The notes beneath the pieces were generated by a model. That model had not been told where the DNA came from. It made no database searches and worked only from the letters and a program-made list of their open reading frames with translations. The position numbers and the translations under genes are program-made. Positions 29,802-58,079 of a stretch of DNA of 64,000 nt are shown here, piece by piece (positions within the stretch are counted from its first letter, which is position 1; the number at the start of each line of letters is the position of its first letter). The DNA comes from Syncephalis fuscata (taxonomy: Eukaryota; Zoopagomycota; Zoopagomycetes; Zoopagales; Piptocephalidaceae). The stretch is taken from assembly GCA_025786725.1 (NCBI GenBank), contig JAHLTZ010000011.1, positions 248,001 through 312,000 of the forward strand, written 5' to 3'.

Positions 29802-30466
29802 TGTTACTATTCCACTAAGAGTAGAATAATAAACGGATTACTAATATTATGCTTGGTCTTGAGTGACCTATAATGTTAGTAATTAGTGTTATATAAGACT
29901 TACTTAATTGTTTTTATTAATAAAGATTATCAACCTTTAATTAATAATTTCTACAGAAGTAGAATAAATGACTAGAATATTGTTAGCTCAGATAGAAAGA
30001 TCAGTTCAGTCTAGCAATCACTGCAAGACTGAAATGATCAAAAGGTTCAAAATTCAAATAAAATAAAAAAAGAATTTAAACCAAGATAAGATAATGTTTA
30101 TTAAGATTAAGAAACATAGTTGCCATTTTATAGCAAATGGTCTTGAATACTGTGAAGGAAGAACTTGAACGGCTTGTCTGTTCAATTTCTTCTTCGAGCG
30201 ATATGGGGCCAGTGTTACTTTAATAAGTAATATGGGGCCGTGGATCGCAAATGTTTATAGGCGCTGTGTTTCCTGCTACGAGTTAGAAGCAATTATAATA
30301 GTATGATCGTCGTATCTTGGCTGAAAGTACGACTATCTTTGTAAGGACCCTGACGATTACCAGAAATGGGAACAATCACGTGATGTAATTATTGCTAATT
30401 AAGTTATTTACCACATTTAGTAAATAACGCAATTTACACCATAGTTATACAGGTAAATTAGTAACA
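29802..30466 (-). repeat. 3' LTR of the gag-only element
   Basis: 665 bp, matches 31872-32536 base for base in my reading. In the sense (minus) direction its first nine bases still encode the end of gag (Cys-Tyr-stop). Confidence 0.92.
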
Positions 30467-31789
30467 TTCCCCTGCACCACACGAAAATGCGTCCTCGCAT
30501 TGTCCATAACACAAAGAATGTTTTAAGTTGGACAAAGGTAATTCTTCGTATGGTTTAGCGCTTCCTTTACCTCTGTTATCCAACATAAAGATGCCATAAT
30601 TGTAGTTGTCGAAAGCTGACAATAATGGCAAGTTATTCGAATGCAATATATAATTTATATTTATATTCTCGGCATTGCGTTTAAGCCGAACCAATTTAGT
30701 AGCATTCAATTTTATCTCATCGAACTTGTCTACATTGTTGTTTACTAGCTCGATGTAGTTGTTGCATGATATTACCCTTTGTTGTATTTTATCGACAATT
30801 GTTGAATCAACTTGCAAATCATATGACGTAGTACTTGAATTGATATTACTAGTGCCTTCATATTCAACTATATCTTTTTGTTGCTTAGTATCAATTACTT
30901 TGTCTGAGGCAGTTTGATTCGGCGGACATTTGTTGACAATATGTACTGTCGGCTGACACGCTGTTAACTTTGGTTGTACTTTGTGACGAATTTGGTAAAC
31001 AGACGTATATATCCATTCTCGCATATAAATTGATTTTGCGTAATGGCAATGATACGGCTCGTGATCAATTTGTTCACATGAATAGTCATATGGTAGGCTA
31101 CCATATTCATTAATGTGGTTTAACTCCACTCTTTGAGTGATTTTAACGATTGTATCAAAGCTGTATTGTCGAATTTGATATTCGCGTTCCATAAAATCTA
31201 AATGTCTTAACAATTTTTCCCGTATTACACCAGATAAATTTTGCTTAAATTGATCGATCAGTTCAGCGTCACTAACATTTAGATATAGCGTACAACGTTT
31301 GTGTATTTCGCTTAACCGTTTAGCAAATGTTGTAACACTATCATTCTTTACAAATGTGCAATATCGAAATTGTTCTAGCCAAAGACGTTCTATACTTGGA
31401 GTAATAAACTTTGCGTAGAATTTTCCATAGAATGAATTGGTTGAATAATGACCAAAATCATCGCTTTCTCTCCATGTTTGGATCCAATCTTCTACATCGT
31501 AAAACCACAGCGCTGCATGTCCTTCCAGATACAATGATACTTTCGCTAGTTTTTCGTACTCTAGCCATCCATTCCGTCTAGCACCTTGCTCAAATAGTTC
31601 CAGCCACAGAATTGGATCTTCGTCTTCAATTAAACTGTTGAATAACGGAATGCTACCATCAATTTTTGCGTGGTAGTCCATTGTTTTATGGGGCAGATAA
31701 TAATCATTGTACTTGTATCTTGTATCTGTGGTGTAGCCTGTTGTCCATAATGGAGTTCTTCTTACTCTTGGGTTTTCCGGGCCGTCCAT
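30458..31789 (-). CDS. Gag-like protein of the LTR element (443 aa)
   Basis: The uninterrupted frame starts 82 nt inside the 5' LTR end. Residues about 50-210 match retrotransposon gag capsid architecture: W-L-x-x-F-E-x-x-x, Y-L-E-G-H-A-A-L-W-F, a helix with FYGKFYAKFI and LWLEQFRYCTFV, then VTTFAKRLSEIH. There is no CCHC zinc knuckle; instead the C-terminus has a small cysteine cluster (CYGQCEDAFSCGAGECY). The polypurine tract is coding, and the stop codon TAA lies inside the 3' LTR, an economical overlap. It would package the element RNA if supplied in trans with Pol. The intact reading frame contrasts with the frame breaks in neighbouring host genes. Confidence 0.85.
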   Translation of the reverse strand: MDGPENPRVRRTPLWTTGYTTDTRYKYNDYYLPHKTMDYHAKIDGSIPLFNSLIEDEDPILWLELFEQGARRNGWLEYEKLAKVSLYLEGHAALWFYDVEDWIQTWRESDDFGHYSTNSFYGKFYAKFITPSIERLWLEQFRYCTFVKNDSVTTFAKRLSEIHKRCTLYLNVSDAELIDQFKQNLSGVIREKLLRHLDFMEREYQIRQYSFDTIVKITQRVELNHINEYGSLPYDYSCEQIDHEPYHCHYAKSIYMREWIYTSVYQIRHKVQPKLTACQPTVHIVNKCPPNQTASDKVIDTKQQKDIVEYEGTSNINSSTTSYDLQVDSTIVDKIQQRVISCNNYIELVNNNVDKFDEIKLNATKLVRLKRNAENININYILHSNNLPLLSAFDNYNYGIFMLDNRGKGSAKPYEELPLSNLKHSLCYGQCEDAFSCGAGECY

Positions 31790-34854: not shown

Positions 34855-37800
34855 ATGAAGCTTTCCATTATCGTCGTTTGCACCATTATCGTGGCTATTG
34901 TGGCCGTTACAACCATAGTGGATGCTAATCCAGTCTTAGTCCGTCGTCTTGGTATGTTGCAATGACAATAAATATATAATATTATTATATTTACTAACAG
35001 CATTTTTAACTAATGACTATATTAGATTGTAAGTAATATTTTATATTCCTTTACTTTTATTTTGAAAAGCTTGTACATTTCTACTACATATAATTGAGAA
35101 TTTGCACTTTTTTTAGTTTCTGCTAAATGTATAGAGTTTTTGAAATTGAATGGGCTGCCACATTTTTGTGTGAAGCCGAGTCCTATCAATCTTACACTGG
35201 GGCCGCTATATTAATTAATGCTCTGCCAAAGCTCTATTTAATATGGCCTTGGATGTATTGCTTGCCTATGACTCTACTGGCTTCGACCTTTGTTACAGGA
35301 CTTCTTTAACAGTTGATGATACCTAATTACTAGCTATTGTTGTTTCACTTCTTCATGACTTTTCTTCTTGTCATACGCGTTTCTTTCACTTCTCAGTGTC
35401 TGCTTCGCATTTGCCCTTCTTCCTACTGATTTTAGTATGAGCTGGCTATCTGGAATCATTATACTTGTTTTTATTGACTATTATTGACTATATAAGTATT
35501 ATTTTTATTATCTTATCTTATTTTCTTTGCTTTTTAAATACTGTTATTGTCTCTGACCGGGCTTTATTGTCTGACCCCATTTACGCTGCGCTGTACCCAT
35601 TACCTTACTTTTTGGACTGTTGATTACAAACGCGCTTATATTTTTTTGCACCTTCCTCTTCAGTTTTGGTTGATTTTTTGTAACTGTTATTCTCACGTCT
35701 TCCATTGCCATATTAATCTCGTCATTGTTTCTGTTTTTTTTGTTCACTTGCCATCTCTACATCTTCCTCTTCTGCTGACATTGCTCGTTCGCCTTCTAAC
35801 AGCATCTACTCTCCCCAATCACTCGTCATCTCCATAATTCCTTTTTTTTAATTGGCGATATTATTATATATTAACTAACCATATACTAATTATATACTGT
35901 GCTGTGTGTGCCAACGAATAAATATCAATAGCTGGTAGGTTGCATTACATATCAATAAATTATACACTAATTATGTATCATGTAATACACTTATCAATAA
36001 CTTAATGTTAGAGCAATGTAAGTTGCATTGTGCATTAATTGATTGCTCACTAATAACATGCTATGCATTATTTTTATCAACAACTTAATGTTAATAGGCA
36101 GTAAGTAATGTTATATATTGATAATTTATAAACTAATTATATACCATGTATTGTGTGTATTAACAACTTAATACCATAGGGGGTAAGTTGTATTGTATAT
36201 TAGCTAACTATACATTAATCTTATACCATGCACTTTGTATATCAATTACTTAATACTAATAGATTGTAAGTTTTATTATATATTAGCTGAGGATTGGCTA
36301 ATTATATAATGTGTTGTGTGTATCAATAACTTAATAATAATAGGCAGTAAGTTGTATTGTATGTTACTGACTTATATATTAATTATATGCCATGCATTAC
36401 GTACATCGATAACTTAATACCATAGAGGGTAAGTTATTGTATATTAATTGAGCATTGGCTAATTATATATTGCGTTGTGTGTATCAATAACTTAATATCA
36501 ATAGCCGGTAAGTTGTATTGTATATAAACTAACTATTCACTGATTATATTTATGTATTGTGTGTATCAACAAATATTAATAGATTGTAGGTAGCACTATA
36601 TATTACCCGGCTATTAGCTAATTATATAATGTGTTGTGTGCATCAATAATTTAATCCTAATAGGCGGTAAGTTGTATTGTATATTAAATAACTATACATT
36701 AATTATGCTATTTACTAATTATATCGATTATTTGATATTAATAGCCCGTAAGTAGTATTGTATATTAAATGAATATACATTAACCATGCTACTTACTAAT
36801 TATACCAATTATTTAATGTTAATAGTCCGTAAGTTATATCGTATATTATTTATTTATTAAAAACGCCTGTGAGCCCCCGCTGCGCATAATTAAAGAATTT
36901 GTGTTGCTTCCCACTATATTTGGACTTTTCCAAACTTTTAATGGGTGGACTGCCACGTTTTTGCGCAAAATCCGGTTCATATAGATTTCACACGGGGCCA
37001 TCTTTTTTTAAATGGTGCTACACAGCACTATTTCCTTGAATTTGATCCCAATTGTTTTTTTCCTCGACTACTCTAGCCAAGGTTTTGTTTCTAGACCTAC
37101 TTATTGGGTTCTGGTTTGCAATTTGTTAACTAGAGAAAACTGGGGGGGGGGATTTTCCACTTAAGGATTGATTCAAACTGAGATTTAAACCCGGAGCCTT
37201 CAGCTCGGGAGACGCTATCTTAGCTACTTTGAGCTAGCAACGTCCTCTTGTATTGTATATTAATTGACTAACTATGCTACTTATTGATTGTACCAATTAT
37301 TGAATACTAATAGATTGTAAGTTGTATTGTATATTAACTAGCTATACATTAACTATAATATTTACTAATTATACTAATTATTTAATATTAATAGATCGTA
37401 AGTTACATTATATGTCAACTTAATATACATTAACTATACTATTTACTGATAATACTGATAATTTAATATTGATAGGCGGTAAGTTGTATTGTATATTAAC
37501 TAACTATATATTAACTATGCTATTTACTGATAATACCAATATTCAATATTAATAGGAAGTAAGTTACATTATATGTCAACTGAATATACATTAACTATAC
37601 TATTTACTGATAATACTAATTATTTAATATTAATAGGTGGTAAGTTGTATTGTATATTAACTAAATATATATTAACTATGTTATTTAATAACCGTATCAA
37701 TTGTTTAATATTGATAGTTGGTAAGTTGTATTGTATATTAATTGACTATATATTAACTATGCTATTTGTCGATTGTGCCAATTATTTAATATTAATAGGA

Positions 37801-38674
37801 CGTAAGTGATATTGCATATTAATTGGCTATACATTAATTATAATATTTATTGATTGTACCAACTATTTAACATAATAGAATGTAAGTTGTATTGCATACT
37901 AATTGAATATGCATTAACTGTCCTATTTACTAACTGTATCAATTATTTAATACAATAGGCAGTAAGTTGTATTGCATATTGCTGACTATGCACTAATCCC
38001 ATGCTATTTACTATGTGTATCAATAATTTAATATTAATAGGGGGTAGGTGATATTGTATATTAGCTGGTTATTCACTAATTATATACCATGGATTGCGTA
38101 TCAACAACTTAATATAGCAAATTGTAAGCTATATTTTATATTAATTAATTACTTAATAATCACATACTATTTGTTATTTATATCAACATTTTAATATTAA
38201 TAGTGTGTAAGTAGTATTATACGGCGACTGATTATGCATTAATCACATGCTATGTACGGTATGCATCAACAACTTAATATAATAGGCAGTAAGTTATGTT
38301 GCGTATCGATTGAATATACATTAACTATATACCATATATTATGTATATCAACGAATTAATATTAATAGAGCGTAAGTTGTACTGTGTATTAATTGCTTAT
38401 GCACTAATTATATACTATGTATTGTATTCATCAACAACTCAAAATTAGAGTATTGTAAGTTGTATCGTATATTAATTGATTACTCACTAATTGCATGTTA
38501 TGCACCATGTGTATCAACAACCTAATATTGATAGGCGGTAAGTAGCATTGTATATTGATGGCTTATACATTAATTATGGCATATAATATCTTTATTTGTA
38601 AATACAGTATAATCGATGGCTTCAAGACATTAGCATTGGTGGTGCAATCGAACCACTATTCCAATACACTTTAG
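34855..38674 (+). CDS. Secreted cysteine-rich peptide gene built from single-codon microexons, paralog 1
   Basis: Exon 1 (34855-34951) encodes a signal peptide (MKLSIIVVCTIIVAIVAVTT, then IVDA) and NPVLVRRL, with a dibasic RR that fits Kex2 processing; it ends in phase 1. A 3-nt exon ATT lies at 35026. After a long intron holding a degraded element, 28 microexons run from 35932 to 38537. All are 3 nt except three of 6 nt (36012, 38118, 38449), each between a TAATAG-like acceptor and GTAAGT/GTAGGT/GTAAGC. Read in phase 1 they encode 32 residues without a stop. Six are cysteines, spaced C-x2-C-x3-C-x10-C-x4-C-x3-C. The terminal exon is placed at 38634 (stop 38674); an alternative acceptor at 38608 would stop at 38612. 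A SINE sits in one intron. Splicing is predicted, not observed. Confidence 0.68.
35100..35870 (-). mobile_element. Degraded insertion in an intron of microexon gene 1
   Basis: About 35130-35290 is a diverged copy of the body of the SINE at 36849-37247 (shared blocks GGGCTGCCACATTTTTGTG versus GGACTGCCACGTTTTTGCG, and CACTGGGGCC versus CACGGGGCCA). The following 35300-35870 is T-rich on the plus strand. On the minus strand it reads as short Lys/Arg/Gln/Glu-rich stretches (QPKLKRKVQKNISAFVINSP), which could be the start of a retroposon ORF1. The boundaries are unclear. Confidence 0.45.
35932..38537 (+). repeat. Array of about 81-bp intron-microexon units, locus 1
   Basis: Microexon starts: 35932, 36012, 36098, 36180, 36263, 36344, 36426, 36505, 36583, 36664, 36745, 36826, then (after the SINE) 37314, 37395, 37476, 37556, 37637, 37718, 37799, 37879, 37959, 38041, 38118, 38204, 38286, 38369, 38449, 38535. 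Spacing is 77-86 bp. The intron ends are strongly conserved (TTAATATTAATAG; GTAAGTTGTATTGTATATTA) and most introns carry a CTAAT/CTAAC branch-like motif. The 3-nt exons vary (for example CTG, GCA, GGG, ATT, CCG, TCC, GTG, GAC). Confidence 0.85.
36849..37247 (-). mobile_element. tRNA-derived SINE inserted in the microexon array
   Basis: The minus-strand head (about 37247-37180) looks like a tRNA: A-box-like TAGCTCAAAGTAG and B-box-like GGGTTTAAATCTC. The tail on the minus strand ends in AATAAATAAATAA repeats. It is flanked by a 15-bp target duplication with two mismatches (36834-36848 and 37248-37262). Removing the element and one target copy restores a normal-length array intron between the exons at 36826 and 37314. 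The flanking bases are array sequence, so the insertion postdates the array. A G run of about ten occurs at 37142-37151. Confidence 0.78.
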
Positions 38675-51644: not shown

Positions 51645-54172
51645 ATGAAGCTTTCTATTAGTGTCGTCTGCACCCTTCTCGTGACTTTTGTAGCTACTAC
51701 AGCCATGGTGGATGCTAAGCCAGCTCTAGCTCGTCGTGGTATGTTGCTACTTAAATCAATGTGCAAACTGTTATATTTACTAACATTATGTAAAATTAAT
51801 GATAGCTCCAGAAGGTGAGTTGCAATTATGGATTGTTGTTATGGTATTTATTGTATATTTCTATATAGATGATACGGATGTTGTATACATGAGACCAGGC
51901 AGTAAGTTTGTTATAAATCAATAAAGCAAACGTTGGATTTATGATACTAATATGCTAAAATAATGTTAATAGAAGGTAAGTGACATTGTATATTAATTAA
52001 CTATACACTAATCACATTTTATATATTGCGATATTAATATTGGTTTATTAATAGGAGGTAATTAATATACAATATTGATTGACATGTACTGATTACATAT
52101 TGCTTGTTGTGTGCATTAACAAATTAGTATTAGCAGACAGTGAGTGACACTATATATTATGTATTACATGTATTAACAACTTAATGGCAATAGCCTGTAA
52201 GTGGCATTGTATATTAGTTAGATGTATACTAATCACATTTTATTTATTATGTGTATCAACATCTTAATATTAATAGGCAGTAAGTAATACTATATTAATT
52301 GAATGTTTACTGATTGTATGTTACCTATTGTGTATATCAATAACCTGATAATAATAGAATGTAAGTGGTAGAATATACCATTTAGCTATGTACTGATCAC
52401 ATGAAATTTATTGCATGCATCAACGCCTTAATATTAACAGGCCGTAAGTAATAATGTACAATTATCGATCACGCACTAATTGCATTTGACTATTTGTGTC
52501 AACGACTTAATATTAATAGAAGGTAAGCTATATTTTATGACATTAACTAGTTCACAACTAACTGCGTATTATGTATTGTGCATGTTGATAATCTAATATT
52601 TATAGATGGTGGGTAACATTATATACCAATTAGCTATAAATTAATTAAATTCTGTGCTACGTATCAACAACTTAATTTTAACAGAGGGTAAGTGGCATTG
52701 TATGATAATCAACTATGCACTAATTACACTTTTTTATACTTTAAATAACAAATTAATATCGATAGATGGCAAGTGATGCACTATATCAATTGACTACAAA
52801 CTAATCACATGTTCATTATACACCATCAATTAATACTAATAGGCAGTAAGTGGCATTGTATATTAATTGATCATACATTAATTCCATGCTATGTATTGTG
52901 TACACCAATAACTTGATATTAATAGACTGTGAGTTATATTGTATGACAATCAACTATGCACTAATTATATATTTACTATGTGTATCTACAACTTGATACT
53001 AATAGGCAGTAAGCAGCATTGCATATTATCAATAGCTACTAATTACTTGCTATGTATTTTATGTGTAAACTTGATATTAATAGCTAGTAAGTAATACTAT
53101 ATTTCAATCGATTATGCACTAATTACATGTTATATATCGTGTACACTGGTGATTTGATATTCATAGGCTGTAAGTTACATTGTATAGCGATTGATTATGT
53201 ATTAATTGCATGCTATCTATTGATGCATAAATGGCTTGGTTTTAATAGGCAGTAAGTAATACCGTATATTAATTAACTGTGTACTGATCACATGTTATAT
53301 ATCGTGCTATTAATGTTGGACTATTAATAGAAGGTGATTACTAGTGTATAGCAATTGACATGCACTAATTATATAACAATTGTTTATATTGTCTATTTAA
53401 TATTAATAGAGGGTAATTAGTATATAATATCAATTAACTGTGTACTGATCACATTTTATTAATTGTCTATATCAATAAACTGATATTAATAGACCGTAGG
53501 TGATATTATATAATAATTGACTATTCACTAATCACATGTTATATATCATGGCTCCAATAATTCGATATTAATAGAAGGTAATTGATATTGTACAATGATC
53601 AGCATACACTAATTACATGCTATTTGTGTGTACTAACGGTTTAATATTAATAGTTTGTAAGTGATACTGTATATTAATTGGCTATGTACTGCTTACATTT
53701 TATTTATTGTGTCTATTAATAACCTATTATTAATAGTCCGTAAGTGATGTTATATATTAGCTGGTGTGTGCTGATCACATTTTATCTATTGTTTATATCA
53801 ATGGCTTGACATTAATAGCTAGTAAGCAATACTGTATATTAATAGGCTATACACTAATTACATAATTACTCTGTATATCAATGACCTAATGTTAATAGTC
53901 GGTAAGTGTTATTGTATATTGATTGAGTATGCATTAATTACGTGCTCATCGTATGCCTCAACAACCTGATCCTAATAGGCAGTAAGTGATATTACACACT
54001 AATTAATTATTCACTAAGCAAATGTTTGCAATGTATATCAAAAACTTAATATAATAGATCGTAAGTAATATTGTATACTATTGGTTTATACGCTAATCAT
54101 ATTGTATGTATTGCATACATTTGTGGGCATAATGCAACTGGTGCATTTAAAACATTAGGATTGATAATGTAA
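51645..54172 (+). CDS. Secreted cysteine-rich peptide gene built from single-codon microexons, paralog 2
   Basis: Exon 1 (51645-51738) encodes a signal peptide (MKLSISVVCTLLVTFVATTA, then MVDA) and KPALARR, ending in phase 1. Exon 2 (51806-51814, 9 nt) and exon 3 (51869-51901, 33 nt) add an acidic stretch (APEGDDTDVVYMRPG in order). Then come 27 consecutive exons of exactly 3 nt, from 51973 to 54060, separated by introns of 54-83 nt. In phase 1 they encode about 27 residues with no stop, including four cysteines spaced C-x1-C-x6-C-x2-C and several Asp/Glu/Lys. The last intron ends at CATTAG and the terminal exon (from 54159) stops at 54172. RR suggests Kex2 maturation. No known family is recognised; it could be an effector or signal peptide. 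The splice model is predicted only. Confidence 0.7.
51973..54060 (+). repeat. Array of about 80-bp intron-microexon units, locus 2
   Basis: Microexon starts: 51973, 52055, 52137, 52194, 52277, 52358, 52441, 52520, 52606, 52685, 52766, 52843, 52926, 53006, 53084, 53167, 53249, 53331, 53410, 53493, 53575, 53654, 53737, 53819, 53899, 53979, 54058. Each is exactly 3 nt between an AG and a GT (GC once, at 52769). Most introns hold CACTAAT- or TACTGAT-like branch motifs about 40-45 nt before the acceptor. One intron (52140-52193) is short at 54 nt. Confidence 0.87.
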
Positions 54173-54395
54173 TTGAACTACTAGTTCAATACAATTTAGG
54201 TATATACTTGTGGAAACAAGGCTATTTGACAGCTGCTGGCCAGCACGTTTATATACCAAGTCCCATCCATTGCTCCGGTTCCTTTATCCCTTAATCAATG
54301 GCATCATTATATTATTAACAAAATCGTATTTAGCTGTATCTACTCAGCCATACAGATCTGTAATAATAAATACATGATTTCATCTATTTATATTT
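54150..54395 (+). other. Terminal exon / 3' UTR conserved with the first microexon locus
   Basis: Counterpart of 38608-38890. Polyadenylation-type AATAAA sequences occur at about 54364. Indels between the copies break the shared reading frame, which favours a 3' UTR. Confidence 0.5.
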
Positions 54396-56367: not shown

Positions 56368-58079
56368 TTAGCTGGCTTTAAGACAATCATCAATAATACG
56401 CATGCAACCTAGTATACGCTCTTCAGAGAATCTTTCGCCAAATACTTGGATACCAATTGGTACACCATGTAAAAGATCCATATCGTAAAATTTACGTGAC
56501 GTGTTTTCTATATAAGAAATGGGTGCGTCTCCTCCTAGCCATGATACATTTTCTTGCTGTTTATCCAGTTTAGCATCAACAGTGGTTACGGGAATTGCTC
56601 CCGCAGTTACATCGAGAACATTATGAAGCGCAGTGTAGCAAACCATAGGGAATTGCTTGCCGGCCGTTTCGTGTAGCACGGCAGGTACACCAAAACCTGG
56701 GCAAATAATAGCGTCAAACGGACGACCACATTCCTGTAGAGCCGTTTCACGCGCTGTACGCAAAAACAAATTACGATATTTATTGCGACGGCCAACTAGC
56801 ATGGCATCTCCTCAGTTGTATGACCGCGTGATATTTCTAGCAATTGAGCTAGCTGTGGCTCTTTATACCAATAAGTAGCGATCCACATCTTTATCTTACG
56901 GGTAATCCAGTGCATTTCGGTCATTTCCAATTGTGGTGTAATGGCTTGACAACGGTCATCATTGCCAAGAATGGCTCGCACATCGCTAAGATTATCGGCG
57001 TAGAGCAATCCCAGGAAAAGTGTAAACGCTTCAAGTACATTGGGCGGCTTGAATTCGACCACTTCATGTCCTGCTGCCCGTAATTTATCAACGGCTATTC
57101 TTACTGCACGCTGACAAGCTGGCGCCGCTGGAAGAAAGCCATCATAAGTATAATAGCCAAGACACAACTTGGCCGGTGGCTGCCATGTGCGCCACGGTAA
57201 AGGAACACAGCCTGAATCTTCTGTCCATGGCTCTTGTTCAATGAGGGCCTTCATGAACAGTTCGAGGCTAGCCACATCACGAGCCATTGGACCAACACTA
57301 ACAGGTATGTATTCCTGAAATCCTTCTTCACCAAGCGTCTCGGCCAATGGTACACGGAATGACGTTGGCTTAAGGGCGTAGATGCCCGAGCAATGCGCTG
57401 GAATACGCACCGATCCACCAATATCCGATCCAATACCCAGCACTGAGGCTTTACTGGCTAATAGCGCACCTTCACCGCCACTACTGCCACCAGGAGCCAC
57501 GTGTTTGTTGTGTGGATTTAGTGTACGACCAAAAACCGGATTGTAGCACTCAAACGTCAGCAGTGTTTGAGGTACGTTTGTTTTCACGTATGGAATAGCA
57601 CCCGCTCGACGTATACATTTTATCAATACGGAATCGCGTGGATGCTTTACGCCTATCAGCGAAGAATGGCCCATACAAGCTTCATGGCCCTTCATTATCA
57701 TACTATCTTTAATTGAGATGGGCAGGCCGTGTAATGGACCAATGGGTCCCTTTTCCGCCATATGTTCATCCATTTTACGAGCTTCTTCAACCGCCTCTTT
57801 AATAAGCACTTCTGCCAAGCAGTTAACCTTATGTTGGGCATTTAATGCCCGTATGCCTAAAACGGTGGCTGCTTGAAGTGCCGTAAACTGTTTTTGTGCT
57901 AGAGCAGTCGTTAAATCACAGGCTGACATGTCACCCAAGCCATTTATCTTTTCGGTAAGCTTTAATTCTTCACTCAGTTTATCGAGCGTAACTTGAGCCG
58001 CATCAATATCGGCCTCTTGTTGTTGCCGCTTCTCACCACAACGGTGACGCGCAGCCCGAGCAGTAAACCAGCTAGACAT
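56368..58079 (-). CDS. Amidase-signature hydrolase, fatty acid amide hydrolase-like
   Basis: Apparently single-exon gene starting at ATG 58079. The amidase signature is complete: SIKDS (Lys124), GGSSGGEGALLAS (cis-Ser199) and GSDIGGSVRIPA (nucleophile Ser223), with the 24-residue spacing between the serines found in FAAH. Further FAAH-type stretches are PYVKTNVPQTLLTFECYNPV, VSVGPMARDVASLE, GYYTYDGFLP and, near the end, HNVLDVTAGAIPVTTV and HGVPIGIQVFGERF. A frame change at about 56803 (GG on the plus strand where GGG is expected) separates the last 140 codons; restoring one base would join them. The overall length, about 570 residues, is normal. The N-terminus has no clear membrane anchor. 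Likely hydrolyses acyl amides; the substrate is unknown. Confidence 0.87.

Follow-up and report, generated by a model that had tools for sequence, protein, structure and literature searches.

We analysed a gene of the fungus Syncephalis fuscata that lies at positions 51645-54172 (+) of a 64,000-nucleotide (nt) stretch of contig JAHLTZ010000011.1 (positions 248,001 to 312,000 of the forward strand, assembly GCA_025786725.1), here called the window and numbered from its first letter. After its first three exons the gene consists of 27 consecutive units, each made up of an AG, exactly 3 nt and a GTAAGT-like donor. We hold with high confidence that this is a functional-looking protein gene in which exon 1 would encode a leader and pro-region, and in which the 27 3-nt exons, once the ordinary U2 spliceosome has put them together in order, would supply most of a cysteine (Cys)-containing mature peptide. 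This reading rests on the demonstrated anatomy of the gene, its open phase-1 frame, the dependence on exon order, the conservation of splice sites in three near-duplicate gene pairs and the homology to intronless genes. Judging from the genome sequence, this soil fungus seems to possess a large family of genes that are cut into strings of 3-letter exons, at about one exon per amino acid, and that would encode small secreted proteins.

Anatomy and splice sites of the window gene

All 27 units described by the original prediction are present, and the donors behind the 3-nt exons read GTAAGT in 15 of 27 cases, the others being GTAATT (3), GTAAGC (3), GTGAGT (2) and GTGGGT, GCAAGT, GTGATT and GTAGGT (1 each). 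Over the whole gene model 30 of 30 acceptors are AG and 29 of 30 donors are GT, the remaining one being GC. The introns preceding the 3-nt exons measure 54-83 nt, which is the range that had been claimed, and mostly fall between 74 and 80 nt; all introns of the gene taken together span 54-98 nt. The branch-like CTAAT that most introns were said to share is found in 16 of 29 parsed introns, with CTRAY present in 22 of 29. When a dynamic-programming search was run on splice-site scores and lengths only, blind to reading frame and with weights derived from the same 27 units, it returned exons of 94, 9 and 33 nt followed by 27 exons of 3 nt, which agrees with the two small exons that had been placed after the leader exon. 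A strict core of the unit, AATAGNNNGTAAGT, is found 29 times across the window, with 12 copies belonging to this gene and 17 to a second array (36093-38377), versus 0.07 ± 0.26 times in 100 shuffles. Folding of five window introns (one cut 1 base early) gave z values from -1.30 to 0.93 with no consistent signal of RNA structure.

The exons of the gene model are listed below; the positions of the 3-nt exons are those of the model, and L007 marks exons within the stretch aligned to the intronless paralogue of that name.

51645..51738, +, exon 1, signal-peptide-like leader and pro-region, MKLSISVVCTLLVTFVATTAMVDAKPALARR plus 1 nt (phase 1); frame-blind search, public partial model P0009, 40 scored genomic DNA matches including itself
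51806..51814, +, exon 2, 9 nt; frame-blind search, residues agree with P0009
51869..51901, +, exon 3, 33 nt; frame-blind search, same residues in P0009
51973..51975, +, 3-nt exon 1, AAG
52055..52057, +, 3-nt exon 2, GAG
52137..52139, +, 3-nt exon 3, ACA
52194..52196, +, 3-nt exon 4, CCT; its last base starts the L007-aligned stretch
52277..52279, +, 3-nt exon 5, GCA; L007
52358..52360, +, 3-nt exon 6, AAT; L007
52441..52443, +, 3-nt exon 7, GCC; L007
52520..52522, +, 3-nt exon 8, AAG; L007
52606..52608, +, 3-nt exon 9, ATG; L007
52685..52687, +, 3-nt exon 10, AGG; L007
52766..52768, +, 3-nt exon 11, ATG, then the GC donor; L007
52843..52845, +, 3-nt exon 12, GCA; L007
52926..52928, +, 3-nt exon 13, ACT; L007
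53006..53008, +, 3-nt exon 14, GCA; L007
53084..53086, +, 3-nt exon 15, CTA; L007
53167..53169, +, 3-nt exon 16, GCT; L007
53249..53251, +, 3-nt exon 17, GCA; L007
53331..53333, +, 3-nt exon 18, AAG
53410..53412, +, 3-nt exon 19, AGG
53493..53495, +, 3-nt exon 20, ACC
53575..53577, +, 3-nt exon 21, AAG
53654..53656, +, 3-nt exon 22, TTT
53737..53739, +, 3-nt exon 23, TCC
53819..53821, +, 3-nt exon 24, CTA
53899..53901, +, 3-nt exon 25, TCG
53979..53981, +, 3-nt exon 26, GCA
54058..54060, +, 3-nt exon 27, ATC
54159..54172, +, last coding exon, ...RLIM stop; acceptor inferred by eye (one before 54200 possible), region homologous to the 3' end of the intronless paralogues

Later parsers place a shorter exon at 51869..51901 because they penalise length. 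For the last coding exon a start at 54200 (open frame RIYLWKQ...) was disfavoured; we chose the 54159 acceptor, which gives a stop after four residues, since the stretch at 54200 probably corresponds to sequence past the stop of the intronless copies.

Joined in order, these exons give an open reading frame (ORF) of 231 nt, very close to the roughly 230 nt anticipated, which encodes a 76-residue Cys-containing peptide, MKLSISVVCTLLVTFVATTAMVDAKPALARRAPEDDTDVVYMRPGKGDTCKCQDEDGNCTSCKEDQVFPIGNRLIM, and ends with a stop at 54170-54172. Phase 1 is open across all 27 3-nt exons and the third phase contains two stops, in line with what had been stated about phase. The exons had also been described as one-codon exons. 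This holds for their length, but since every residue that the array specifies draws on two exons, taking the final base of the first and the initial two bases of the second, the exons are of codon length and are not themselves codons. The leader in exon 1, MKLSI...DAKPALARR, looks like a signal peptide and ends in RR; CQDEDGNCTSCK is an example fragment of the peptides that are predicted to be secreted.

Intronless paralogues match the ordered triplets

Searching the genome with the spliced window protein gave four loci (on contigs C157, C24, C278 and C222) at which residues 1-63 or 1-64 are encoded in an uninterrupted frame at 57-63% identity. In the mature part these paralogues carry CKCRDDDGYCTSC, versus CKCQDEDGNCTSC from the window triplets. 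At the nucleotide level the ordered phase-1 triplets and the intronless gene L007 share 33 of 39 positions in an ungapped alignment that spans 13 predicted introns. We take this as the decisive evidence, and it supports the original view of the array as a spliced gene. The alignment score is 69; 20,000 permutations of triplet order never exceed 49, and the other two phases give 16 and 24. The homology extends to the 3' end of the gene and, by eye, upstream of the start codon. Note that the frame of the window gene is open by chance in 11% of shuffles, so its openness alone is no proof for this gene.

A similar correspondence is seen elsewhere in the genome. The peptide of array L074 aligns with intronless L094 over 31 residues without a gap at 52% identity, with a score of 94, and none of 500 permutations scores above 43. 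When 27 arrays were compared with seven intronless peptides (500 shuffles each, the L094 peptide entered including its leader), 13 arrays matched at P ≤ 0.01 and 2 more at P between 0.04 and 0.05.

Among 150 scored matches to the leader in the genome, 77 have an open frame of just 39-43 residues and 68 one of at least 60 residues. Such short frames would be expected where the first intron follows the leader, most of the 77 being candidates known from frame length only. The window gene's own open frame runs for 129 residues, so a longer frame is no proof of an intronless gene. Uninterrupted relatives at C236:180381-180587, C273, C228, C157:276621 and other places encode the leader followed by CX2CX3C..C..CX3C peptides, from which it follows that the family is mixed.

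A genome-wide family in which exon order matters

The locus that was originally picked out is real, but it is one of many, and a second array gene of the same window, at 34855-38612, had gone unmentioned. Across the S. fuscata genome (G000; 28.95 Mb in 299 contigs) the unit pattern, allowing up to three mismatches, gives 1,533 + 1,863 = 3,396 matches versus 1 + 0 for the reversed control. At about 26 units per parsed gene, the roughly 3,400 units translate into an estimate on the order of 130 arrays. We parsed 31 of 32 attempted array loci, the exception being L070, whose leader was missed by the signal-exon pattern; of loci L013-L038, those covering 3' parts only were left out, the whole genes L026 and L036 were parsed, and L034 was used as an intronless gene. 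The parse of the 31 arrays gives 797 micro-exons. Of these, 746 measure 3 nt, 41 measure 6 nt and 10 have some other length, although the parser favours 3 nt and this distribution is therefore not independent evidence. One parsed gene, with 41 micro-exons, has a near-copy with 42. Exon 1 measures 94 nt in 19 arrays and 97 nt in 12.

A test of the spliced reading across the family comes from shuffling exon order in 24 of the 31 arrays, parsed blind to frame and with a preference for 3-nt exons, four near-duplicates and three arrays with an exon not divisible by 3 being left out. The observed order gives 2 stops in 644 codons versus 31.2 ± 4.2, 93 Cys versus 45.4 ± 4.8, 22 of 24 stop-free arrays versus 6.4 (maximum 14 in 5,000 shuffles) and the pattern CX3C..CX3C in 10 of 24 arrays versus 0.04; none of the 5,000 shuffles matches the observed value for any of the four. 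An earlier parse of 20 arrays with 10,000 shuffles gave 1 stop in 385 versus 22.4 and 54 Cys versus 31.0. Since the order of the triplets matters, adjacent 3-nt exons that lie about 80 bases apart in the DNA are read together, and a plain minisatellite, which had been considered, is ruled out.

The spliced peptides are mostly short and contain Cys, for example GDPAQCAACVENCKRRTGLDWGKCRNGSCRTIC (L074) and DAIEDCRRGRAACFKKCQSTWRDSASLEYRSCSMDCASYWRIC (L055/L064), and three parsed arrays (L073, L076 and L077) have no Cys in the mature part. Protein searches covering 5.8 billion proteins returned 7, 1 and 2 matches and nothing outside S. fuscata, with shared 5-residue words being required for a match. 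The array gene family is so far seen only in this species, as far as sequence comparison reaches. S. fuscata is a zoopagalean fungus (Zoopagomycota), and Syncephalis parasitises other fungi. In PMC7466969 the sequenced strain goes by the name S228. A pattern scan of viral contigs gave no matches. The deposited models of array genes that we saw, P0003, P0007 and P0009, follow the first exons only, which indicates that standard annotation easily misses such genes and that similar ones may be overlooked elsewhere.

The second array gene of the window

The second array gene is organised as follows.

34855..34951, +, exon 1, signal-like leader, 97 nt
35026..38537, +, 28 micro-exons (26 of 3 nt and 2 of 6 nt, at 36012-36017 and 38449-38454); intronless homologue L034
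38608..38612, +, start of the last exon, stop TAA at 38610-38612

After the RR, its predicted peptide reads LDSEQCRDCKADCALHYRGSVGQCRVCKQYCV. Two introns, of 903 and 485 nt, are evidently enlarged by insertions and the frame is still open; a 160-nt intron may hide one further 6-nt exon near 38118, as judged by eye. The intronless relative L034, obtained through a search with the last exon, can be aligned with this gene all the way from the first exon to the last, apart from gaps halfway through the mature part. The score is 59, no higher value than 43 being reached in 5,000 permutations, and the coding sequence of L034 continues straight into the predicted last exon. The idea that the second array is a pseudogene was dropped, as the parse, the open frame and the homology to L034 speak otherwise.

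A repeat of about 400 bp (text GAGCCCCCGCTGCGCATAATTAAAG...) lies at 36829-37313 and is also seen within introns of L039, L077, L082 and L086. By eye one end of it is tRNA-like, raising the question of a short interspersed element; ARAGORN, run with the bacterial code, finds no tRNAs in the window.

Evolution of units and introns

In three near-duplicate gene pairs the splice sites differ at 2 of 747 positions relative to 109 of 5,455 in intron bodies (Fisher P = 0.00016) and 4 of 255 in micro-exons; these are three of six pairs compared, with one divergent pair shown apart. For L026/L072 exon 1 differs more (7/94) than the introns. The window introns have diverged to a mean identity of 0.62, with all 27 splice-site pairs and the frame intact.

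The array introns share one consensus, GTAAGTtgTATTgTATATTAA...TTTAATATTAATAG (664 introns, 26 arrays), and neighbouring introns are more alike, with an identity of 0.754 at lag 1 and 0.687 beyond lag 12. Intron pairs that are at least 97% identical within an array share their flanking triplet in 13 of 16 cases versus 7% of 5,206 pairs below 75% identity (23 arrays), which indicates that units duplicate together with their codon; at 93-97% identity (51 pairs) 29% share it. Such duplications are directly visible as alternating CAA/ACC encoding NPNP in L080 and as TTC/CTG encoding VPVP in L076. The length of an array would change through tandem duplication and deletion of intron-plus-codon units, and recombination at the level of units (perhaps also in-frame exon skipping) could let peptides acquire or drop amino acids one at a time, or have single ones duplicated or exchanged, with the frame kept.

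In two paralogue pairs the triplets differ by 44-46%, the introns by 11-14% and exon 1 by 2-3%, a later parse of one of these pairs giving 32% versus 12% for triplets and introns. Where units could be paired unambiguously (three related pairs, 6-9 units each) the triplets differ by 25-50% versus 5% for introns, and in four closer pairs by 0-6% versus 1-3%. The faster change of triplets relative to introns suggests diversifying selection on the mature peptide, but part of the difference comes from the pairing of non-orthologous units, and the four closer pairs show hardly any. In comparisons of L080 with L086 and of L079 with L080, the central loops between Cys residues come from units with very similar introns and different triplets, and the units that encode Cys, which flank these loops, are more diverged.

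In a tree of exon 1 the rows of 32 array genes and 10 intronless genes are interspersed, with six changes of state of which at least two are forced by well-supported branches; the resolution is low (94 columns, 19 open forks of 37). Our preferred reading is that the intronless copies arose through repeated replacement by spliced complementary DNA (cDNA). This would resemble the reverse transcriptase-mediated intron loss inferred for plant APC11 genes, which have a 1-nt microexon (PMC8831610).

A proposed splicing ratchet

Donors are GTAAGT in 645 of 760 cases across the parsed arrays, and the last base of the exon is G in 25% of 746. The one genome match to the U1 small nuclear RNA over the cut-off has a canonical 5' end, ATACTTACCTG, that is complementary to GTAAGT. 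Near-perfect donors, a nearly unconstrained exon end and a canonical U1 together indicate that recognition rests mainly on the intron. The window gene also has the features of U2-type introns, namely GT-AG ends, a U1-complementary donor and a branch-like motif.

We propose that messenger RNA (mRNA) would be made from the array genes through removal of the homologous introns of about 78 nt and joining of the 3-nt exons in order. Splicing would occur by intron definition and probably from 5' to 3', since a 3-nt exon is too short for factors to sit at its two ends simultaneously, which points to sequential splicing. Each step would add 3 nt to the growing exon and expose the next GTAAGT, so that the array would behave as a ratchet, a recursive splicing point with a 3-nt payload. 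The resulting peptides would be secreted and act outside the cell. Put at its widest, the proposal is of a new architecture, on the order of 100 genes with arrays of [78-nt intron + 3-nt exon], the exon being reduced to the length of a codon over most of the mature protein, that serves as a codon-by-codon generator of diversity and is spliced by a ratchet of 3 nt per step; we consider the chances of this full proposal to be evenly balanced.

If transcripts confirm these genes, the spliceosome accurately joins 27, and up to about 41, 3-nt exons in one gene. Exon size and number would then lie at an extreme, exon definition would apparently be dispensable, the gene design would be a very fragmented one, and the arrays would offer a natural system for studying the order and fidelity of splicing. 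The data also suggest a mode of protein evolution by insertion, deletion and duplication of single codons through recombination between homologous introns.

Weighing the alternatives

Several observations count against the spliced reading. The public partial model P0009 at the window locus carries the residues of exons 1-3, after which it departs from the array, takes another partial end (LVLAD) and does not contain the array. A 3-nt exon has no room for ordinary exon definition. The parse is imperfect, with 10 of 797 micro-exons of odd length, which may be parsing errors, and a stop in 3 of 31 arrays. As the arrays are mutually related, the shuffles are not fully independent, and for 12 of the 27 arrays compared with the seven intronless peptides the match is no better, at P 0.05, than with their exon order shuffled. 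No intronless relative came up when the genome was searched with the spliced peptide of the 41-micro-exon gene or with that of the second window gene. Finally, in a more divergent one of the six gene pairs (L046/L039) the donors differ at 20 of 197 positions, nearly as often as the introns (272 of 2,190); large gaps in this pair suggest that units were mis-paired.

Joining exon 3 of the window gene straight to the last exon stays in frame (...RPGRLIM stop), and P0009 ends shortly after exon 3. Both would fit an array that is a single large intron, or else a retained non-coding repeat, with a product made from exons 1-3 and the last exon. We regard this as barely credible, as retaining all that follows exon 3 would place 70 stops in the frame of the gene, with residue 52 the last before the first of them, and as either version leaves unexplained both the homology of the triplets to intronless ORFs (three genes) and the order dependence in 24 arrays. 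The same in-frame skip also favours combinatorial splicing, by which each gene would yield many peptides and the all-exon product would be only one of them. In the window gene each micro-exon is 3 nt long and 1-1 in phase, so skipping any subset keeps the frame, and a paper on schistosome micro-exon genes describes such use of small symmetrical exons (PMC4350168). Yet it is in the ordered, all-inclusive reading that stops are avoided and Cys enriched, which makes the full product look like the selected one, and the sequence holds no sign of skipping; we treat extensive combinatorial use as a serious but not favoured possibility. The arrays might instead be relics, once expressed and now decaying, with peptides made only by the intronless paralogues. 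A stop in 2 of the 24 order-tested arrays (among the 3 of 31 parsed) and introns of 400-900 nt in several arrays would be in keeping with decay. Such a state is quite improbable given that 22 of the 24 arrays lack a stop, where 6.4 would be expected, that splice sites differ less than intron bodies in the three near-duplicate pairs, and that the window gene keeps its splice sites and frame among diverged introns.

A different question is whether the intronless genes are ancestral, the introns having been gained one per codon by introner-like insertion. The array introns do form one sequence family, introner-like elements exist in fungi (PMC4457414), and exon 1 of the window gene groups with two intronless copies (support 97/70). 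However, a profile of the intron family, run over the 64-kb window at E ≤ 1e-3, matches nothing beyond the two array genes, and recent copies within arrays carry the same codon, pointing to tandem duplication of units. Repeated gain at precisely every third nucleotide, always in one phase, would moreover require a targeting rule, and for the six changes in the exon-1 tree repeated loss of whole arrays seems easier than repeated gain. Intron gain thus appears rather unlikely to us, and we retain the spliced array gene, with cDNA-derived intronless copies, as the reading that we prefer.

Comparison with known systems

The original prediction took the design to be undescribed, and among the matches listed from the open-licence literature, in the portions of those texts covered, neither arrays of 3-nt exons nor micro-exon genes in Syncephalis were found. 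The micro-exon genes (MEGs) of Schistosoma have exons mostly of 15 bp (6-81 bp in the text, 3-81 in the abstract), with 10-20 per gene, and introns of 0.1-5 kbp in a set of 35 genes (PMC10526429). They combine a signal peptide with a coding region made mostly of very small symmetrical exons, encode secreted variable proteins and are difficult for automatic annotation (PMC10526429, PMC4350168). The array genes are similar in their small symmetrical exons and poor annotation, and would be so in their signal-peptide-like leader and predicted secreted products. Unlike the MEGs, the array genes have micro-exons that are 3 nt long in 746 of 797 cases and number up to 42 per gene, with introns mostly of about 78 nt that are homologous to each other. 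By sequence features, Schistosoma MEGs would be the nearest kind, and an array gene would probably work functionally like a micro-exon gene with an architecture of its own that appears new. As to kinship between the two, the protein-database matches are only from S. fuscata, in a search that needs shared 5-residue words and leaves room for a distant relationship.

Aphid bicycle genes have many small exons in one phase, a signal peptide and Cys-containing secreted proteins; their exons are tens of nt long and their introns are not known to be tandem homologous units. The array genes, as predicted, would be like them in the former respects and differ in the latter. Plant APC11 and VPS55 contain 1-nt exons, and the spliceosome can include exons of 1-15 nt, with strong GTRAGT donors in VPS55 (PMC8831610). 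These ultra-short microexons are described as single or two adjacent in ordinary genes (PMC8831610), unlike the S. fuscata arrays. Introners, families of similar and multiplying spliceosomal introns, are known in some fungi (PMC9860276, PMC4457414), and in the main text of the former paper the strings 'Syncephalis' and 'Zoopago' are absent. Introners insert into many genes, whereas the S. fuscata intron copies are in tandem at a fixed 3-nt spacing and, within the window, occur in array genes only.

At the ratchet points of recursive splicing a strong 5' splice site directly follows the 3' splice site, the donor is regenerated at each step and 0 nt are added to the mRNA. The ratchet proposed for S. 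fuscata would differ in adding 3 coding nt per step. Alpha-hairpinins are disulfide-linked helical-hairpin peptides with CX3C..CX3C, a pattern present in 12 of the 31 parsed mature peptides and absent from that of the window gene; the likeness is one of resemblance only. A single-sequence model of the intronless relative P0008 has a helical mature part (block predicted local distance difference test (pLDDT) 74-80, at a mean pLDDT of 66, which is low confidence). A search of six proteins for Pfam families gave none above the cut-off, with weak hits to LEAP-2 and big defensin below it, and Foldseek gave no match in the PDB with E ≤ 0.001.

Other open reading frames in the window

Two further features of the window were noted by eye. 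A 443-residue ORF at 30458-31789 (-) is retrotransposon gag-like, and just downstream of the window gene two adjacent ORFs at 56368-58079 (-) resemble amidase-signature enzymes.

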